A stretch of 34,443 nt of DNA, from NCBI GenBank assembly GCA_031279975.1, contig JAITHL010000210.1:1-34443 (forward strand), given 5' to 3'. Under the pieces are notes generated by a model, which did no database searches, was not told the DNA's origin, and worked only from the letters and a program-made list of their open reading frames with translations. How positions within the stretch are numbered: the stretch's first letter is position 1; every line of letters begins with the position of its first letter. Shown here one piece after another: positions 5,059 to 34,443 of this stretch. A program made the position numbers and the translations under genes. This stretch comes from Treponema sp. GTDB lineage: Bacteria; Spirochaetota; Spirochaetia; Treponematales; Breznakiellaceae.

Positions 5059-5086
5059 GAGCCTGTTGCGCCGGCATTATTAAAAG

Positions 5087-5505
5087 GGTCCGTTGATTAC
5101 GCGGATTGACGGTACTAATATCCGCGTTAATCAGTGAAAATCCGCGTTAATCCGTGGACCCGCGTAACAAGGTCCGCTGATTAACACTGATTACACGGAT
5201 TGCCGCTGATTACGCGGATTGACGGTACTAATATCAGCGTTAATCAGTGAAAATCAGCGTTAATCTGTGGGCCCGCGTAACAAGGTCCGCTGATTAACAC
5301 GGATTGCGCTGATTACCGCTGATTACGCTGATTTGACGGTACTAATATCAGCGTTAATCAGTGAAAATCAGTGTTAATCTGTGGACCCGCGTAACAAGGT
5401 CCGCTGATTACCGCTGATTACGCTGATTTGACGGTATTAATATCAGCGTTAATCAGTGAAAATCCGCGCAATCCGCGGACTATGTTGAAAAACCTGATTT
5501 AATCA
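5087..5505. repeat. Tandem intergenic array of AATCAGCG/ATCCGCG-type repeats
   Basis: Four units start with GGTCC at 5087, 5171, 5284 and 5398 (spacing 84, 113, 114). Each carries a conserved GACGGTACTAATATCAGCG and GTTAATCAGTGAAAATC block and ends near GACCCGCGTAACAA. The first two unit types interchange GCTGATTA and GCGGATTA. The array is flanked by a perfect 15-bp direct repeat AGGAGCCTGTTGCGC at 5057-5071 and 5516-5530. No coding sequence is supported here. Confidence 0.9.
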
Positions 5506-12646: not shown

Positions 12647-12712
12647 GGGGGGACCGGGGGGCCTTTCGGCCCCCCGGCGGGGGCGTTACGGGGGCAGAGC
12701 CCCCCGTTGGGG
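12647..12712. repeat. GC-rich palindromic repeat (REP-like), copy 2
   Basis: Nested hairpins: CCGGGGGGCC with GGCCCCCCGG, and GGGGGC-AGA-GCCCCC. It is the near-exact reverse complement of 28631-28692. Sits between the exporter gene and the glycosyltransferase, where it could act as a transcription attenuator or 3'-end stabiliser. Confidence 0.85.
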
Positions 12713-25845: not shown

Positions 25846-26300
25846 GGCGCTGATTGCGTACCGGAGGTCCGGCGTCAAGCAGGGCCTCCGGTCAGAAATC
25901 AGCGTTGCCCTAGGAGTTTGCGGCGCTTCGCGCAATTCAACAGAAAAAACGCGCCAAAAGAGCGTTTTTTCCGTGATTTATGCTAAAACGAACCACGGAA
26001 GGCGCTGATGTAACGCGGATGATGTTTCTAATCATCCGCGTCATCCTTTTCATCAGCGCAATCAGCGGTTCCATGGAAACCGTTTTTTTACCGCAGATGG
26101 CGCGGATGTACGCAGATTAACGCTGATGCTGTTATCTTCATCAGCGTCATCATTTTAATCCGCGCAATCAGCGGTTCCATGGAAACTGTTCTTTATCGCA
26201 GATGACACGGATGTACACATATTTCCGGTAAACCCCGCTAATCCGCGCCGAACCAGATTTTCGTGATCCGCGTTAATCAGTGTAATCCGTGGACATTGTT
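25846..26300. repeat. Intergenic repeat block between fdx and nifV
   Basis: Contains a GGAGGTCCGGCG/CCTCCGG hairpin near 25868-25895, a bidirectional terminator-like hairpin (25943-25971), and two tandem units of about 106 bp in which GCGCAATCAGCGGTTCCATGG starts at 26056 and 26162. Its right end (26240-26310) carries the GATCCGCG/AATCAGTG type seen at 5087-5505 and runs into the 3' end of nifV. No gene is supported between 25843 and 26272. Confidence 0.85.
25943..25971. terminator. Bidirectional terminator between convergent fdx and nifV
   Basis: Perfect 10-bp stem GAAAAAACGC (25943-25952) with GCGTTTTTTC (25962-25971), loop GCCAAAAGA. A-tract on one side and T-tract on the other allow function on both strands, fitting its place between convergent transcription units. 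Confidence 0.5.
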
Positions 26301-28517: not shown

Positions 28518-28625
28518 CTAATGTGTTGGCCGCGATAAATCCCCGGCAGCTTAAGTGATTAGCGGGCGCATGGGCCGTACCCCCCTGGGGTACGGCCCTT
28601 GCGCCCGCAACATGGTAACAAGCTA

Positions 28626-28711
28626 CCCCCTCAACGGGGGCTCTGCCCCCGTAACGCCCCCGCCGGGGGGCCTCAGGCCCCCCGGTCCCCCCTTAAGCTG
28701 TTGACAGTGGG
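28626..28711. repeat. GC-rich palindromic repeat (REP-like), copy 3
   Basis: GGGGGC-TCT-GCCCCC and CCGGGGGGCC-TCA-GGCCCCCCGG hairpins, followed by the block GTCCCCCCTTAAGCTGTTGA. Near-exact reverse complement of 12647-12712 and extends into the aroK coding 3' end; the same block forms the ftsH 3' end. Confidence 0.88.
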
Positions 28712-29245
28712 AGACTTCCCCCTGTTTAGCAGCGCTTCCTCTATCGCCCGGCCCACTGCTTGAGGAGTGCGGGACTCCCCGGAAATACACAGGTGCGCCA
28801 ACGCCTTGTACGCCCCGGCCCGCCGTTCATGGAGCAGGCGGTGGGCCTCCTGGGGATTCCCAGGGTCGAGAAAGGGGGGAAGCTCCCCGGCGGCATTTTG
28901 CGCGATACGGTTCCAGGCGGTTTCCGGGGAAATTTCCAGGTAGACCAAGGTCAGGGATTCCCGGCCTTGCAGCAGGGCCAAGGCCCGGCTGTTATCAATG
29001 AGGCCCCCGCCGGCGGCAATGACCGCTCCGGCCCCTGTTTCCAGCGCGGCATGCAGGCTTGCGGCCTCCGCTTGGCGGAACAGCCCGATGGATTCCCGGT
29101 AGAGGGTCCGGGGTGGTTTTCCGGTCCGCGCTTCGAGCCATACATCCAGATCGATAAACCGGGTCCCCAGGAGGTCCGCCAAAACCCTGCCGGCGCTGGT
29201 TTTCCCCGCGTGTTTCGGTCCCATTACAATAATCATATTGCCCAT
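28673..29245 (-). CDS. aroK: Shikimate kinase
   Basis: Phosphorylates shikimate at O3 in the aromatic amino acid pathway. 190 residues. Walker A GPKHAGKT (about 9-16), shikimate-binding FIDLD (30-34), RESIGLFRQAE and AAGGG, and a lid-like ERRAGAYKALA. The lid is HRLLHERRAGAY rather than the textbook R-x-P-L-Y, so a gluconate-kinase-like relative is a weaker alternative. Start could also be the ATG at 29236. The last dozen residues (from SPTVNSLRGDRGA) are read from the palindromic repeat. Stands alone on the minus strand. Confidence 0.85.
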   Translation of the reverse strand: MGNMIIVMGPKHAGKTSAGRVLADLLGTRFIDLDVWLEARTGKPPRTLYRESIGLFRQAEAASLHAALETGAGAVIAAGGGLIDNSRALALLQGRESLTLVYLEISPETAWNRIAQNAAGELPPFLDPGNPQEAHRLLHERRAGAYKALAHLCISGESRTPQAVGRAIEEALLNRGKSPTVNSLRGDRGA

Positions 29246-29303
29246 AGCCCTTAGTTTACTGAAGCCGCCGCAATAGCGCCAGGCGGTCCTCCGGTCCTGT
29301 TGG

Positions 29304-29363
29304 CTAGGGAAGCGCTGAATAACTTGACGCCGGACCTCCGGTCCGCAATCAGCGCTTCCCTAG
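29304..29363. repeat. Long inverted repeat between aroK and the tRNA
   Basis: CTAGGGAAGCGCTGA (29304-29318) pairs perfectly with 29349-29363. The loop carries GCCGGACCTCCGGTCC. The same loop phrase, with different stems, recurs at 32992-33041 and in variant form near 25868. Confidence 0.85.
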
Positions 29364-29405
29364 GGATCATCCTGGCCTTTACCTCCTTGGCGGCCATTTC
29401 AAGGG

Positions 29406-29523
29406 GCTGCGCGGCACGGTCAACAGCGTAAGGGGGCCGGGGAACCGGCTGAAGCCCGCAACATCCTGTTTCGGGCTTCAGTCCCGCCTTCGTCCGCTGA
29501 CGGCTTGGCTATGCCGCGCAAGC
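29406..29523. ncRNA. Candidate structured RNA or palindromic element
   Basis: A nested structure covers 118 bases: outer stem GCGCGGCA (29409-29416) with TGCCGCGC (29512-29519), extended by GCT/AGC; CAGCG (29424-29428) with CGCTG (29495-29499); AAGG-GGG (29430-29436) with CCC-g-CCTT (29483-29490); then two inner hairpins, GCCGG-GGAA-CCGGC (29436-29449) and TGAAGCCCG/CGGGCTTCA (29450-29458/29472-29480). The strand is unknown. It does not match SRP, RNase P, 6S or tmRNA motifs that I recognise. The stretch 29246-29596 has no gene. Confidence 0.35.
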
Positions 29524-29596
29524 CGCTGCCTTTCCATGCCGTCTTTTCCTCCCGTTGGCCGGCGCAAAAAATATTATTTTTTATGTTCTAAGCGCC

Positions 29597-29625
29597 TTGA
29601 CTCTTTTACCAAAAATTGGTATCTT
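29597..29625 (+). promoter_or_regulatory. Promoter of the initiator tRNA
   Basis: TTGACT (29597-29602), 17-bp spacer, TATCTT (29620-29625); transcription would start near 29632, six bases before the mature 5' end. Confidence 0.7.
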
Positions 29626-29637
29626 AGAAAGAGACAA

Positions 29638-29710
29638 CGCAGGGTAGAGCAGTTGGCAGCTCGTCGGGCTCATAACCCGGAGGTCGTAGGTTCGAGTCCT
29701 ACCCCTGCTA
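29638..29710 (+). tRNA. Initiator tRNA-fMet (anticodon CAT)
   Basis: A 73-base cloverleaf: acceptor CGCAGGG (29638-29644) with CCCTGCT (29703-29709), D-stem GAGC/GCTC, anticodon loop CTCATAA with CAT at 29671-29673, T-arm GTAGG-TTCGAGT-CCTAC, discriminator A at 29710. Initiator identity is shown by the unpaired position 1-72 (C opposite T) and the three consecutive G-C pairs (GGG/CCC) in the anticodon stem. CCA is not encoded. Confidence 0.95.
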
Positions 29711-29712
29711 GC

Positions 29713-29760
29713 GGCTTATAAGGCAGTGTACCGCAATGCCTTATAAGCCTTTTTTGTTTT
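29713..29760 (+). terminator. Rho-independent terminator of the tRNA
   Basis: Perfect 13-bp stem GGCTTATAAGGCA (29713-29725) with TGCCTTATAAGCC (29737-29749), then TTTTTTGTTTT. Confidence 0.9.
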
Positions 29761-29832
29761 GTTAGGGCGGCGGTCCTGGATAACCGGGGCCGTTAAGATT
29801 GTATGATTTTCTATAACTCAAGGCAAGACCGC

Positions 29833-29861
29833 TTGAGCTTCCCCTATAATAGTGCTATAAT
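29833..29861 (+). promoter_or_regulatory. Promoter upstream of the broken tRNA gene
   Basis: TTGAGC (29833-29838), 17-bp spacer, consensus TATAAT (29856-29861). It points to element F and the tRNA remnant and could also supply fliM. Probably the original promoter of a second initiator tRNA gene. Confidence 0.55.
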
Positions 29862-29877
29862 GAATCCCAATTACTTA

Positions 29878-29945
29878 ATTTTCGTAGCCTAAAGGTTGCG
29901 AAAATGTAGTGTCCGTCCATAAAGTAACCGGCTTTATGGACAGAT
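29878..29945. repeat. Partial three-armed palindromic element, copy F
   Basis: Core ATTTTCG (29878-29884) with CGAAAAT (29899-29905), then arm GTCCATAAAG (29915-29924) with CTTTATGGAC (29932-29941), loop TAACCGG. Matches the first part of the nifD-nifK copy, with a different stem sequence and the same loop. Confidence 0.8.
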
Positions 29946-29984
29946 ACCGCTCTTGGTTCTTAGCGGGCAGGATTGAACTATGCG

Positions 29985-30024
29985 CATAACCCGGAGGCCG
30001 CGGGTTCGAGTCCCGCCCCTGGCG
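29985..30024 (+). pseudogene. 3' half of a second initiator tRNA
   Basis: From the CAT anticodon to the discriminator position it matches the intact tRNA, with T-stem changes that keep pairing (GCGGG/CCCGC in place of GTAGG/CCTAC). The sequence before it (GGCAGGATTGAACTATGCG) cannot form a D-arm or a 5' acceptor strand, so the gene is truncated. Element F abuts the lost half. Confidence 0.75.
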
Positions 30025-30190
30025 GCGGTTTCCCCTGTCCGGCGGATTTTAGTATTCTAAAAAACTGAGCGGAAATGCCGACACTAAAAGAGGTTCTCCC
30101 AAGCTATGCTGATTTCGGACCTTGAGTCCGGCCAGGCAACCAGCATTGTCCCAAGGAGGCCGTTGAGCTTATAAAGTAGGACGATATACT

Positions 30191-32985: not shown

Positions 32986-32991
32986 AGCAGG

Positions 32992-33041
32992 GAACCGCTG
33001 AGTAACTTGACGCCGGACCTCCGGCCCGCAATCAGCGGTTC
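32992..33041. terminator. Inverted repeat between convergent genes
   Basis: GAACCGCTGA (32992-33001) pairs perfectly with TCAGCGGTTC (33032-33041); the loop carries GCCGGACCTCCGGC, as in the element at 29304-29363. No T-run follows. Likely an inserted palindromic repeat that may double as a transcription barrier. Confidence 0.5.
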
Positions 33042-33042
33042 A

Positions 33043-33960
33043 TTAGGCGCCCGGCGAAGGCCCCGCGGGCCTTAAGGAACTGCCGTATACCTCCTCCAGG
33101 GAGGGTATGGAGGGGGATGCCCCAGGCCGGGATACGGCTAGGGAAGCGGCTATGGAAGCAAGCCGCAGCGCCTCCGGCGGCGCGTCCCCCTGGAGGAGCC
33201 GGGCGATAAAAAAACCCGTGAAGGTATCGCCCGCGGCGGTGGTGTCCTTTACCGCGACATCGTAGATCCCGTGACGGTATTCCTCCGCGCCCTTCCGGTA
33301 AAAGGCCCCTTCCCTGCCCCGGGTAAGCGCTATTGCCGTTTGGGGAAAGCGCCCGGCAAGGGCCTCAAGCTGGTCCCGGCTATCCTCCGCGCCGCTTATC
33401 ATACGGGCTTCAATTTCATTGAGGATAATAAAATCCAGCTTATGCTTCAGCGCCTCGTGAACCGCATCGTTGGCAGGCGAAGGGTTGTACGCGATCCGCA
33501 GCCCCCGTTCAACGGCCATTTCCGCAATGGCGGAAACGCGGGAAATTTCATTTTGCAGGAGGAGGACATCCCCCTCCCCAAAACGCGCCAGGGTTTCCCG
33601 GGCCTGTGTTTCGGTAACCGACTCGTTGGCCCCGCCGAAGAGCAGTATGCAGTTCCGGCCTTCCCTGTCGACTTGAATGATCGCGTGTCCCGAAGGCGCG
33701 GCGGTTTTGCGTATCAAACCAACGTCTACCCCGCGCCGCCGCAGCGCCTCAAGGAGCGGCTCCCCATCCTCCGCGCCGCAGCATCCCGCGTGAAAGACCT
33801 GGGCTCCGGCGCGGGCAAGCGCGATGGACTGGTTAAGCCCCTTGCCCCCAACAAAGGTCTCCCGGTCCAGGGCCGCAAGGGTCTCGCCGGAACGCGCAAA
33901 GTGATCAACCCGGTACACATAATCAATATTGAGGGAGCCGAAATTCAAAAAACGCGCCAT
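33043..33960 (-). CDS. Ribokinase/PfkB-family sugar kinase
   Basis: 305 residues. PfkB signature 1 region GGKGLNQSIALARAGAQV (about 38-55) and signature 2 DTTAAGDTFTGFFIARL (about 238-254, catalytic Asp in AAGD) are intact. N-terminus LNFGSLNIDYVYRVDHF and the GCCGAEDG block resemble ribokinase. Probable substrate ribose or a related sugar or nucleoside; not resolvable by eye. Lacks neighbouring rbs transport genes. The stop lies at the edge of the palindrome at 32992-33041. Start ATG at 33960 is seven bases after a -10 element. Confidence 0.88.
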   Translation of the reverse strand: MARFLNFGSLNIDYVYRVDHFARSGETLAALDRETFVGGKGLNQSIALARAGAQVFHAGCCGAEDGEPLLEALRRRGVDVGLIRKTAAPSGHAIIQVDREGRNCILLFGGANESVTETQARETLARFGEGDVLLLQNEISRVSAIAEMAVERGLRIAYNPSPANDAVHEALKHKLDFIILNEIEARMISGAEDSRDQLEALAGRFPQTAIALTRGREGAFYRKGAEEYRHGIYDVAVKDTTAAGDTFTGFFIARLLQGDAPPEALRLASIAASLAVSRPGASPSIPSLEEVYGSSLRPAGPSPGA

Positions 33961-34096: not shown

Positions 34097-34350
34097 CTTA
34101 GGGAAGCGCTGATTTATTCGGCGTTATCAAAAGGGACCGCGGATTAACGCTGATTACCACGGATTAGCACAGATTTTGTTACCGGTAATCAGCGCAATCA
34201 GCGGAAATCAGTGTAATCAGCGGTTCTCAGCGGACCTGGTAAACCGGGTATTATCAACAGGGACCGCGGATTTTCACGGATTAAGTGAGTTTTGTTACTA
34301 GAAATTGGCGTTAATCCGCGCAATCCGCGGACTTTGTTTAAAAATCCGGT
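34097..34350. repeat. Second AATCAGCG/ATCCGCG repeat array
   Basis: Begins CCTTAGGGAAGCGCTGA (stem of the 29304 element), then two units starting TTATCAAAAGGGACCGCGG at 34124 and TTATCAACAGGGACCGCGG at 34251, with GCGTTAATCCGCG and CAATCCGCGGACTTTG at the right end. Its right end matches 5480-5505 and overlaps the last codons of the edge gene. No gene is seen between 33961 and 34337. Confidence 0.85.
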
Positions 34351-34443
34351 TTAATCAGCGCCGGCCCTAACAGCTCTTTGAGAATATCCAAGGCGCTGAT
34401 TACATAGCCGGGGCAGACCGCTTCGACGCGGCCTGAGGCGAAC
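34338..34443 (-). CDS. 3' end of an unidentified gene (cut by the window edge)
   Basis: The minus strand reads FASGRVEAVCPGYVISALD, then ILKELLGPALIKPDF and stop (TAA at 34340-34338). Codon choice resembles the neighbours. The last residues, ALIKPDF, come from the repeat array. Too short to name. Confidence 0.5.
   Translation of the reverse strand, partial: FASGRVEAVCPGYVISALDILKELLGPALIKPDF

Follow-up and report, generated by a model that had tools for sequence, protein, structure and literature searches.

The stretch of DNA analysed here (the window) comprises 34,443 nt of a Treponema sp. contig, in which 392 bp separate an aroK-like ORF from a tRNA-Met gene. The single ORF of at least 60 amino acids listed in this gap has 61 amino acids and extends into the tRNA. 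A possible new structured RNA had been predicted at 29406-29523, and the strong fold attributed to this stretch was confirmed: on the plus strand it reaches -69.6 kcal/mol, compared with a shuffle mean of -49 (sd 4.07, z -5.06), and none of 200 dinucleotide-preserving shuffles was as stable. The GGAA-loop hairpin (CCGG-GGAA-CCGG, 29437-29448) and the long second hairpin (29449-29481) are both present on the plus strand as described. The limits of the stretch had to be redrawn, since the conserved core occupies a different interval and its RNA-like strand is the minus strand (Table 1). Between 29240 and 29780, one promoter-like site was detected, which is the tRNA's own and lies on the other strand from the element, and no terminator-like site was found. 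At gathering scores, the neighboring tRNA was the sole Rfam 15 match in the whole window; at E<=10 in 29240-30100, only weak matches overlapped the locus, the best with an E value of 1.2.

Table 1. Features of the aroK/tRNA-Met gap and its borders (window positions; strand left empty where none applies).
Feature	Positions	Strand	Basis or remark
aroK-like ORF	28673-29245	-	ORF list
GC-rich palindromic repeat end, reaching into the aroK-like ORF at its 3' side	28688-28709		also a direct repeat with 234-266
Flanking GC-rich repeat end	29415-29436		inverted copy of 28688-28709, 91%
P3, near-perfect long hairpin (second hairpin of the original prediction)	29449-29481	-	inverted repeat, sequence
Conserved core: P1, P1a, P2 with insertion, P3	29453-29571	-	match to model R1
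ACAGGATGT at the tip of P3	29461-29469	-	sequence
P1, 3' strand (GCGGAC)	29492-29497	-	sequence, model alignment
P2	29499-29543	-	stem GACGGC (29538-29543) / GCCGTC (29499-29504)
Palindrome-like insertion within P2	29505-29537	-	sequence, model alignment
P1a hairpin CCGGCC-AAC-GGGAGG, with one of the two tandem G.A pairs altered	29548-29562	-	sequence; P1a defined by covariation
P1, position of 5' strand (UUUUGC)	29564-29569	-	model alignment, sequence
tRNA-Met (CAT)	29638-29710	+	strand opposite to the element; not the family's usual arrangement

The folded stretch had also been considered distinct from both repeat families of the window, and this did not survive comparison: it contains an inverted copy of the GC-rich repeat end that reaches into the aroK-like ORF, and 17 further places in the genome are full or partial copies of it (E<=0.0012). 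GC-rich palindromic repeats at 12648-12704, 28550-28709 and 234-266 have ends and loops in common, with other palindromes apparently nested in them. A second palindrome family (AGGGAAGCGCTGA...TCAGCGCTTCCCT) is found at 25856-25914, 29306-29364 and 32989-33047, one copy sitting between the folded stretch and aroK. Degenerate CGCTGATTA / GCGGATT units are repeated in direct and inverted orientation at 5080-5464 and 34124-34369. Some of the 3' part of tRNA-Met recurs 314 nt downstream of the gene (29982-30031, plus strand; 80% over 50 nt with 29668-29717), and this incomplete copy received no ARAGORN call.

A DNA search of relatives recovered copies in 7 of 39 genomes, the window's own included, and the relatives' copies share GCCGRCCAACGGGAGGAAAAG (minus strand of the window), bordered by stems whose two sides change together. 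The covariance model R1 was built from an alignment (A1) of nine sequences that excluded the window copy and included one sequence (L012) from the window's genome, with double changes at 11 of 18 pairs. With filters off, R1 matched the window at 29571-29453 on the minus strand (52.0 bits, E 6.5e-10), the second-best place in the window having an E value of 1.3; with filters on, the window copy was matched over 29453-29577 (62.1 bits, E 3.4e-10). Searches with R1 covered Spirochaetota and the fetched loci, and those of the taxonomic family and the phylum used stricter filters and genomes drawn from larger groups. Matches were obtained in 74 of 118 genomes and 43 of 56 genera of the window's taxonomic family, and in 70 of 392 genomes drawn across the phylum. 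Of these 70, 8 belong to the window's family (own included), 53 to the remaining families of its order, 8 to the rest of the class and 1 to the rest of the phylum. Carriers among the matches listed include Breznakiella homolactica, Brucepastera parasyntrophica, Gracilinema caldarium (MAG) and Treponema zioleckii, along with many MAGs of gut and environmental origin. Pattern matches in Micromonospora, Streptomyces and Opitutia (L147, L149, L150) gave no R1 match, and were therefore taken as chance; the exact 21-nt core pattern had no matches in viral_contigs. One MAG titled Deltaproteobacteria contains R1 matches of 72.9 bits at two contig ends (L135, 31-130, minus strand; L158, 12-111, plus strand), with identical core sequence and no nearby tRNA, reflecting either spread beyond the spirochaetes or contamination. 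In another genome (G012), which has no R1 match, 11 places match the P3 hairpin alone with ACAGGATGT, set in a different recurring mosaic (for example L037, L044, L048, L052, L055, L057, L059, L060 and L062).

The core of the family, about 100 nt in length, consists of a stem, P1, enclosing hairpins P1a and P2, followed by hairpin P3. P1 has six pairs and is extended in many copies. P1a has the consensus CC-GA-CC-NNN-GG-GA-GG with a tandem G.A that is nearly invariant (kept in 98-101 of 104 distinct copies), while its C-G pairs switch to G-C or A-U; P2 has seven pairs and a loop that is mostly NGGA, and the P3 loop is CA[G/C]GANG. Over 28 pairs in the four helices, the 104 distinct matches contained 551 double-change cells versus 144 in shuffles and at most 140 when the partners were slid, and none of 500 shuffles reached any of five covariation measures. 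Because this alignment (A2) was fitted to the model, its count leans towards structure, and 48 sequences hand-picked for spread (A4) were therefore aligned with MAFFT without the model and folded unguided, their limits being taken from the model matches. RNAalifold returned the same four helices, with double changes at 17 of 22 pairs. Comparison with related genomes, proposed earlier as a check, thus revealed abundant compensatory change. On the opposite strand, the tandem G.A would read C.U; together with the constant orientation relative to tRNAs, this indicates that the RNA strand is the minus strand of the window.

The exposure of GGA in the hairpin loops of P2 and P3 raises the idea, drawn from sequence, that the family might act as a decoy for CsrA in tRNA trailers. 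The E. coli CsrA consensus RUACARGGAUGU (PMC8668096) is matched by ACAGGAUGU in P3, and GGA is found in the P2 loop of 93 of the 104 distinct copies and in the P3 loop of 75. However, GGA gives way to CGA in 21 of the 104 P3 loops and in 6 of the 104 P2 loops, a substitution that would be unexpected at a CsrA site; this weakens the decoy explanation, which we regard as the least probable of those considered.

To describe placement, we used 200 distinct matches out of 228 R1 matches at 154 loci, which were best-scoring or pattern-selected; copies identical with their flanks were removed, and the copies from the window's own genome were not part of the set. Most of the matches (139/200) were located 13-93 nt downstream of a tRNA on the same strand, and these tRNA-linked copies span 27 anticodon types, Ser and Met being the commonest. 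A further 26 followed a same-strand tRNA at a distance of 111-400 nt, a group that includes second copies in tandem. No tRNA was present upstream of 27, and in 8 the upstream DNA was too short; none of the 200 had solely an opposite-strand tRNA nearby. Eleven of the 27 tRNA-less matches, at seven loci (L117, L146, L152, L154, L161, L166 and L173), were instead behind tmRNA on the same strand, which ended 62-75 nt before the nearest copy, and for 16 of the 200 neither a tRNA nor a tmRNA was found. Five copies occur within one tRNA gene cluster, mostly tRNA-Ser (L041, G018:C6 13796-14869), where some follow a single tRNA as tandem copies.

The tRNA-linked copies are usually flanked by sequences derived from the tRNA next to them; positions in the tRNA (C56, T54, 63-66 and so on) follow the conventional numbering. 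An inverted copy of the T-arm of the local tRNA, 9 nt or longer, preceded P1 in 128 of 139 copies, versus 284 of 2780 control comparisons in which the tRNA was specific for a different amino acid. After P3, 12 nt or more of the 3' end of the local tRNA was directly repeated in 114 of 139 copies, versus 13 of 2780 in the same type of control. The direct copy reached at least 9 nt in 121 of 139, starting at C56 in 91 of these 121, and the tRNA end was 19-20 nt from C56 in 88 of 139. The inverted arm extended to T54 in 122 of 130, and was faithful over positions 56-63, fading from 64. In 45 of 115 copies the duplication continued at least 15 nt beyond the tRNA, and in 42 of 115 it ended within 5 nt. 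The inverted arm and the direct copy could pair with each other, giving a closing stem (P0) of at least 8-9 bp. Covariation in P0 was considered as proof that this stem is selected, and was rejected, as no compensatory changes were found at positions 56-64 in 125 copies; a 12-nt version of P0 (117 copies) gave six apparent compensatory cases, none of them before position 65, in the region where most arms come to an end.

Comparison of three species of one genus (G063, G094 and G122) revealed both filled and empty sites. The element was found behind tRNA-Arg(TCG) in G063 and G094 and was absent in G122, was found behind tRNA-Trp in G122 and absent in G063, and was found behind tRNA-Leu(CAG) in G063 and absent in G122. 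The filled tRNA-Trp allele contained a 40-nt duplication, with one difference, that starts at C56 and extends into the trailer, together with an inverted tRNA copy of 16 nt. When tRNA-Thr(CGT) and its element from G122 were searched against G094 (unaligned), the match spanned the tRNA alone, which fits another empty site. An empty site may also represent a loss, and with three species gain and loss are not separable. Mean core identity was 0.677 within one genome between copies at different amino acids (70 pairs), and copies that share an anticodon in different genomes averaged 0.618 (323 pairs). The nearest neighbor of a copy was in the same genome at another anticodon in 19 of 93 cases and at the same anticodon in 16 of 93. 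Because it was in another genome in 40 of 93 cases at another anticodon, and in 18 of 93 at the same anticodon, spread within a genome is one signal among others.

From these observations, we infer that the family is a tRNA-targeted mobile RNA element. The element would enter behind a tRNA, with the T-loop as one boundary; the target would be duplicated from C56 into the trailer, so that the tRNA stays intact, and the element would take up the target's T-arm in inverted form at its 5' end. P0, formed by the arm and the direct copy, would then close the RNA. A resident reverse transcriptase as the necessary motor, in a SINE-like manner, was not supported: RVT_1 was found in 10 of 28 genomes tested and was absent from the element-bearing genomes G052 (100% complete), G042 (100%) and G461 (99%), although a past or transient enzyme may have acted. 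A resident Y1 transposase as the necessary motor was likewise not supported, Y1_Tnp being found in 10 of 28 genomes tested, with four matches in the window's genome, and absent from the element-bearing genomes G042, G014, G340 and G461. It is conceivable, though we consider it doubtful, that the RNA guides itself, its 5' arm serving as a guide of about 9-18 nt, complementary to the T-arm at the insertion point, and being rewritten for each target. If so, a gene-less structured RNA of about 100 nt could spread into almost every tRNA or tmRNA gene, entering at the T-loop and duplicating a long piece of the target, which would be a previously undescribed kind of transposition.

The flanking copies also bear on whether the element has a use for its host. 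The arm matched positions 56-63 of the local tRNA at 92-100% in every age class. In 31 copies, the first 12 nt of both trailers no longer matched; the direct copy in these had an identity of 0.94-1.00 over positions 63-66 and 0.81-0.84 over 67-73, and the arm an identity of 0.94-1.00 over 56-63, in an analysis of 119 of the 139 copies in which positions 56-62 located the direct copy, and are thus uninformative for it, and from which 19 of 139 without such a copy were dropped, so that lost copies are uncounted. This retention of the arm and the direct copy over P0, despite diverged trailers, suggests a use of the RNA beyond selfish movement. Since the arm could also pair with the tRNA, a regulatory role is a serious rival explanation, in which the element is a cis-acting regulator of tRNA or tmRNA maturation whose copies are gained and lost for their usefulness, not for selfishness. 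Pairing of the anti-T-arm with the upstream tRNA would spoil that tRNA, whereas pairing with the element's own 3' copy would leave it free, and the core, by sensing a protein or ligand, would set the balance between the two pairings. The strong conservation and covariation of the core agree with such a role, as do the faithful arm and the better-kept part of the direct copy. However, the lack of compensatory changes in P0 speaks against it, as does the variation among sister species in the sets of tRNAs that bear the element. In addition, a terminator-like hairpin lies between the tRNA and the core in 23 of 139 copies, versus 2 of 695 shuffled trailers, indicating that the element is not always well sited for read-through from the tRNA. 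On balance, we consider a regulator gained and lost for its usefulness to be unlikely.

The copies in the window's own genome (2.62 Mb in 249 contigs, 78% complete) present a different picture from the tRNA-linked ones. DNA similarity search located 18 similar places (E<=0.0012), counting that of the window, and R1 matched 13 places at E<=0.001, of which the window copy is one; these numbers rule out a single-copy RNA gene, as which the locus had been proposed to be checked. The description as a new structured RNA therefore applies to the family, which has compensatory changes and no Rfam 15 match, and not to this locus as a single-copy gene: scattered copies are numerous, yet the compensatory changes are abundant. 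The own-genome copies are mosaics, whose pieces recur with different GC-rich palindromes before, after or within them. All 13 sit within GC-rich palindromes away from tRNA 3' ends, and in the DNA retrieved around them no tRNA or tmRNA gene on the same strand precedes any of the 13, one copy (C239) starting at a contig end. GTAGTCC precedes P1 exactly in 6 of the 13 copies and in near form in 4, and GTAGTC follows P3 exactly in 4 and in near form in 4; copies with GTAGTCC before P1 and no tRNA were also found in G002, G124 and G098 (the last at a contig end). We infer that in the window's genome a sub-lineage left the tRNAs and now resides in GC-rich palindromes.

The window copy itself lacks the GTAGTCC and GTAGTC flanks. 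Its P1 is weakened because the two strands pair through G-U-rich pairs and one mismatch, P2 carries an insertion, P3 has grown into a longer near-perfect hairpin, and its scores are middling beside the 113 bits of the best family copies. These features mark it as a likely relic of the dispersed sub-lineage, and it probably no longer works as an RNA. It lies upstream of tRNA-Met and on the opposite strand, so that the target-derived arrangement does not apply, and no direct repeat of the tRNA 3' part is present. Palindrome insertions in the P2 loop like that of the window copy were also seen in the tRNA-linked copies L124, L170, L183, L266 and L071.

The mosaic structure of the own-genome copies, nested in GC-rich palindromes, together with the four Y1 transposase matches in the same genome, would be consistent with a palindromic intergenic DNA repeat of the REP or MITE type, for which the hairpins matter in DNA only and RNA is irrelevant. 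Such a repeat would have no need of a tandem G.A kept in nearly every copy, nor does it account for a branched, covarying structure or a constant strand relative to tRNAs; moreover, several element-bearing genomes lack Y1_Tnp. We therefore consider a purely DNA-level repeat very unlikely. The reading that we favor, to which we assign a joint probability of roughly 0.7, is that the window copy is a decayed, dispersed member of a structured RNA family of tRNA and tmRNA trailers, widespread in Spirochaetota, which we take to be mobile.

Rfam 15 contained no match to the core of the window copy or of six relative loci, group I and group II introns included; weak matches of other families overlapped some copies, all below gathering scores. 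The rtT RNA is encoded in tandem repeats behind the E. coli tRNA-Tyr gene tyrT, the repeats copying the tRNA 3' end. The spirochaete element is similar in its position downstream of a tRNA gene, in the copy of the tRNA 3' end and in the presence of an RNA there. However, the tyrT repeats concern one tRNA and are not known to have such a core, whereas the element is found with 27 anticodon types and tmRNA and has an inverted arm, and the Rfam model RtT gave no match at E<=5 in the six relative loci, nor at E<=10 in 29240-30100. The dispersed copies within palindromes, in the window and its genome, resemble repeats of the REP, BIME and MITE type; unlike those, the family is branched, has conserved G.A pairs and lies behind tRNAs in relatives.

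Integrative elements use the T-loop and the 3' end of tRNA and tmRNA genes by means of tyrosine recombinases (PMC2647930). Features in common with those elements are a direct repeat that begins in the T-loop and takes in the 3' part of the tRNA, an intact tRNA and the use of tmRNA. In contrast to them, the spirochaete element has a structured RNA core of about 100 nt and a target-specific inverted arm, and its duplication often continues through the trailer; with the core, the arms and the trailer copy as its only parts, it is too short for an integrase gene. Dada DNA transposons and other eukaryotic elements target small RNA genes (PMC3706591). The targeting of multicopy small RNA genes is shared with Dada, but Dada elements are eukaryotic transposons, whereas the element described here is short, bacterial and without a visible gene. 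The nearest systems, namely the tyrT/rtT repeats and the integrative elements of tRNA genes, share single features only. No description of the family was found in the literature, which was covered mostly outside subscription journals, and this structured RNA family of spirochaetes is apparently undescribed.

We found no precedent for an RNA of tRNA and tmRNA trailers that is accompanied by both inverted and direct copies of its target. A palindromic intergenic repeat of one genome can here be traced to an RNA that is at home elsewhere. Either the family moves in a way that is new for so small a non-coding element, or it adds a new level of control to tRNA and tmRNA maturation, and both readings are testable in Breznakiella homolactica and Brucepastera parasyntrophica.
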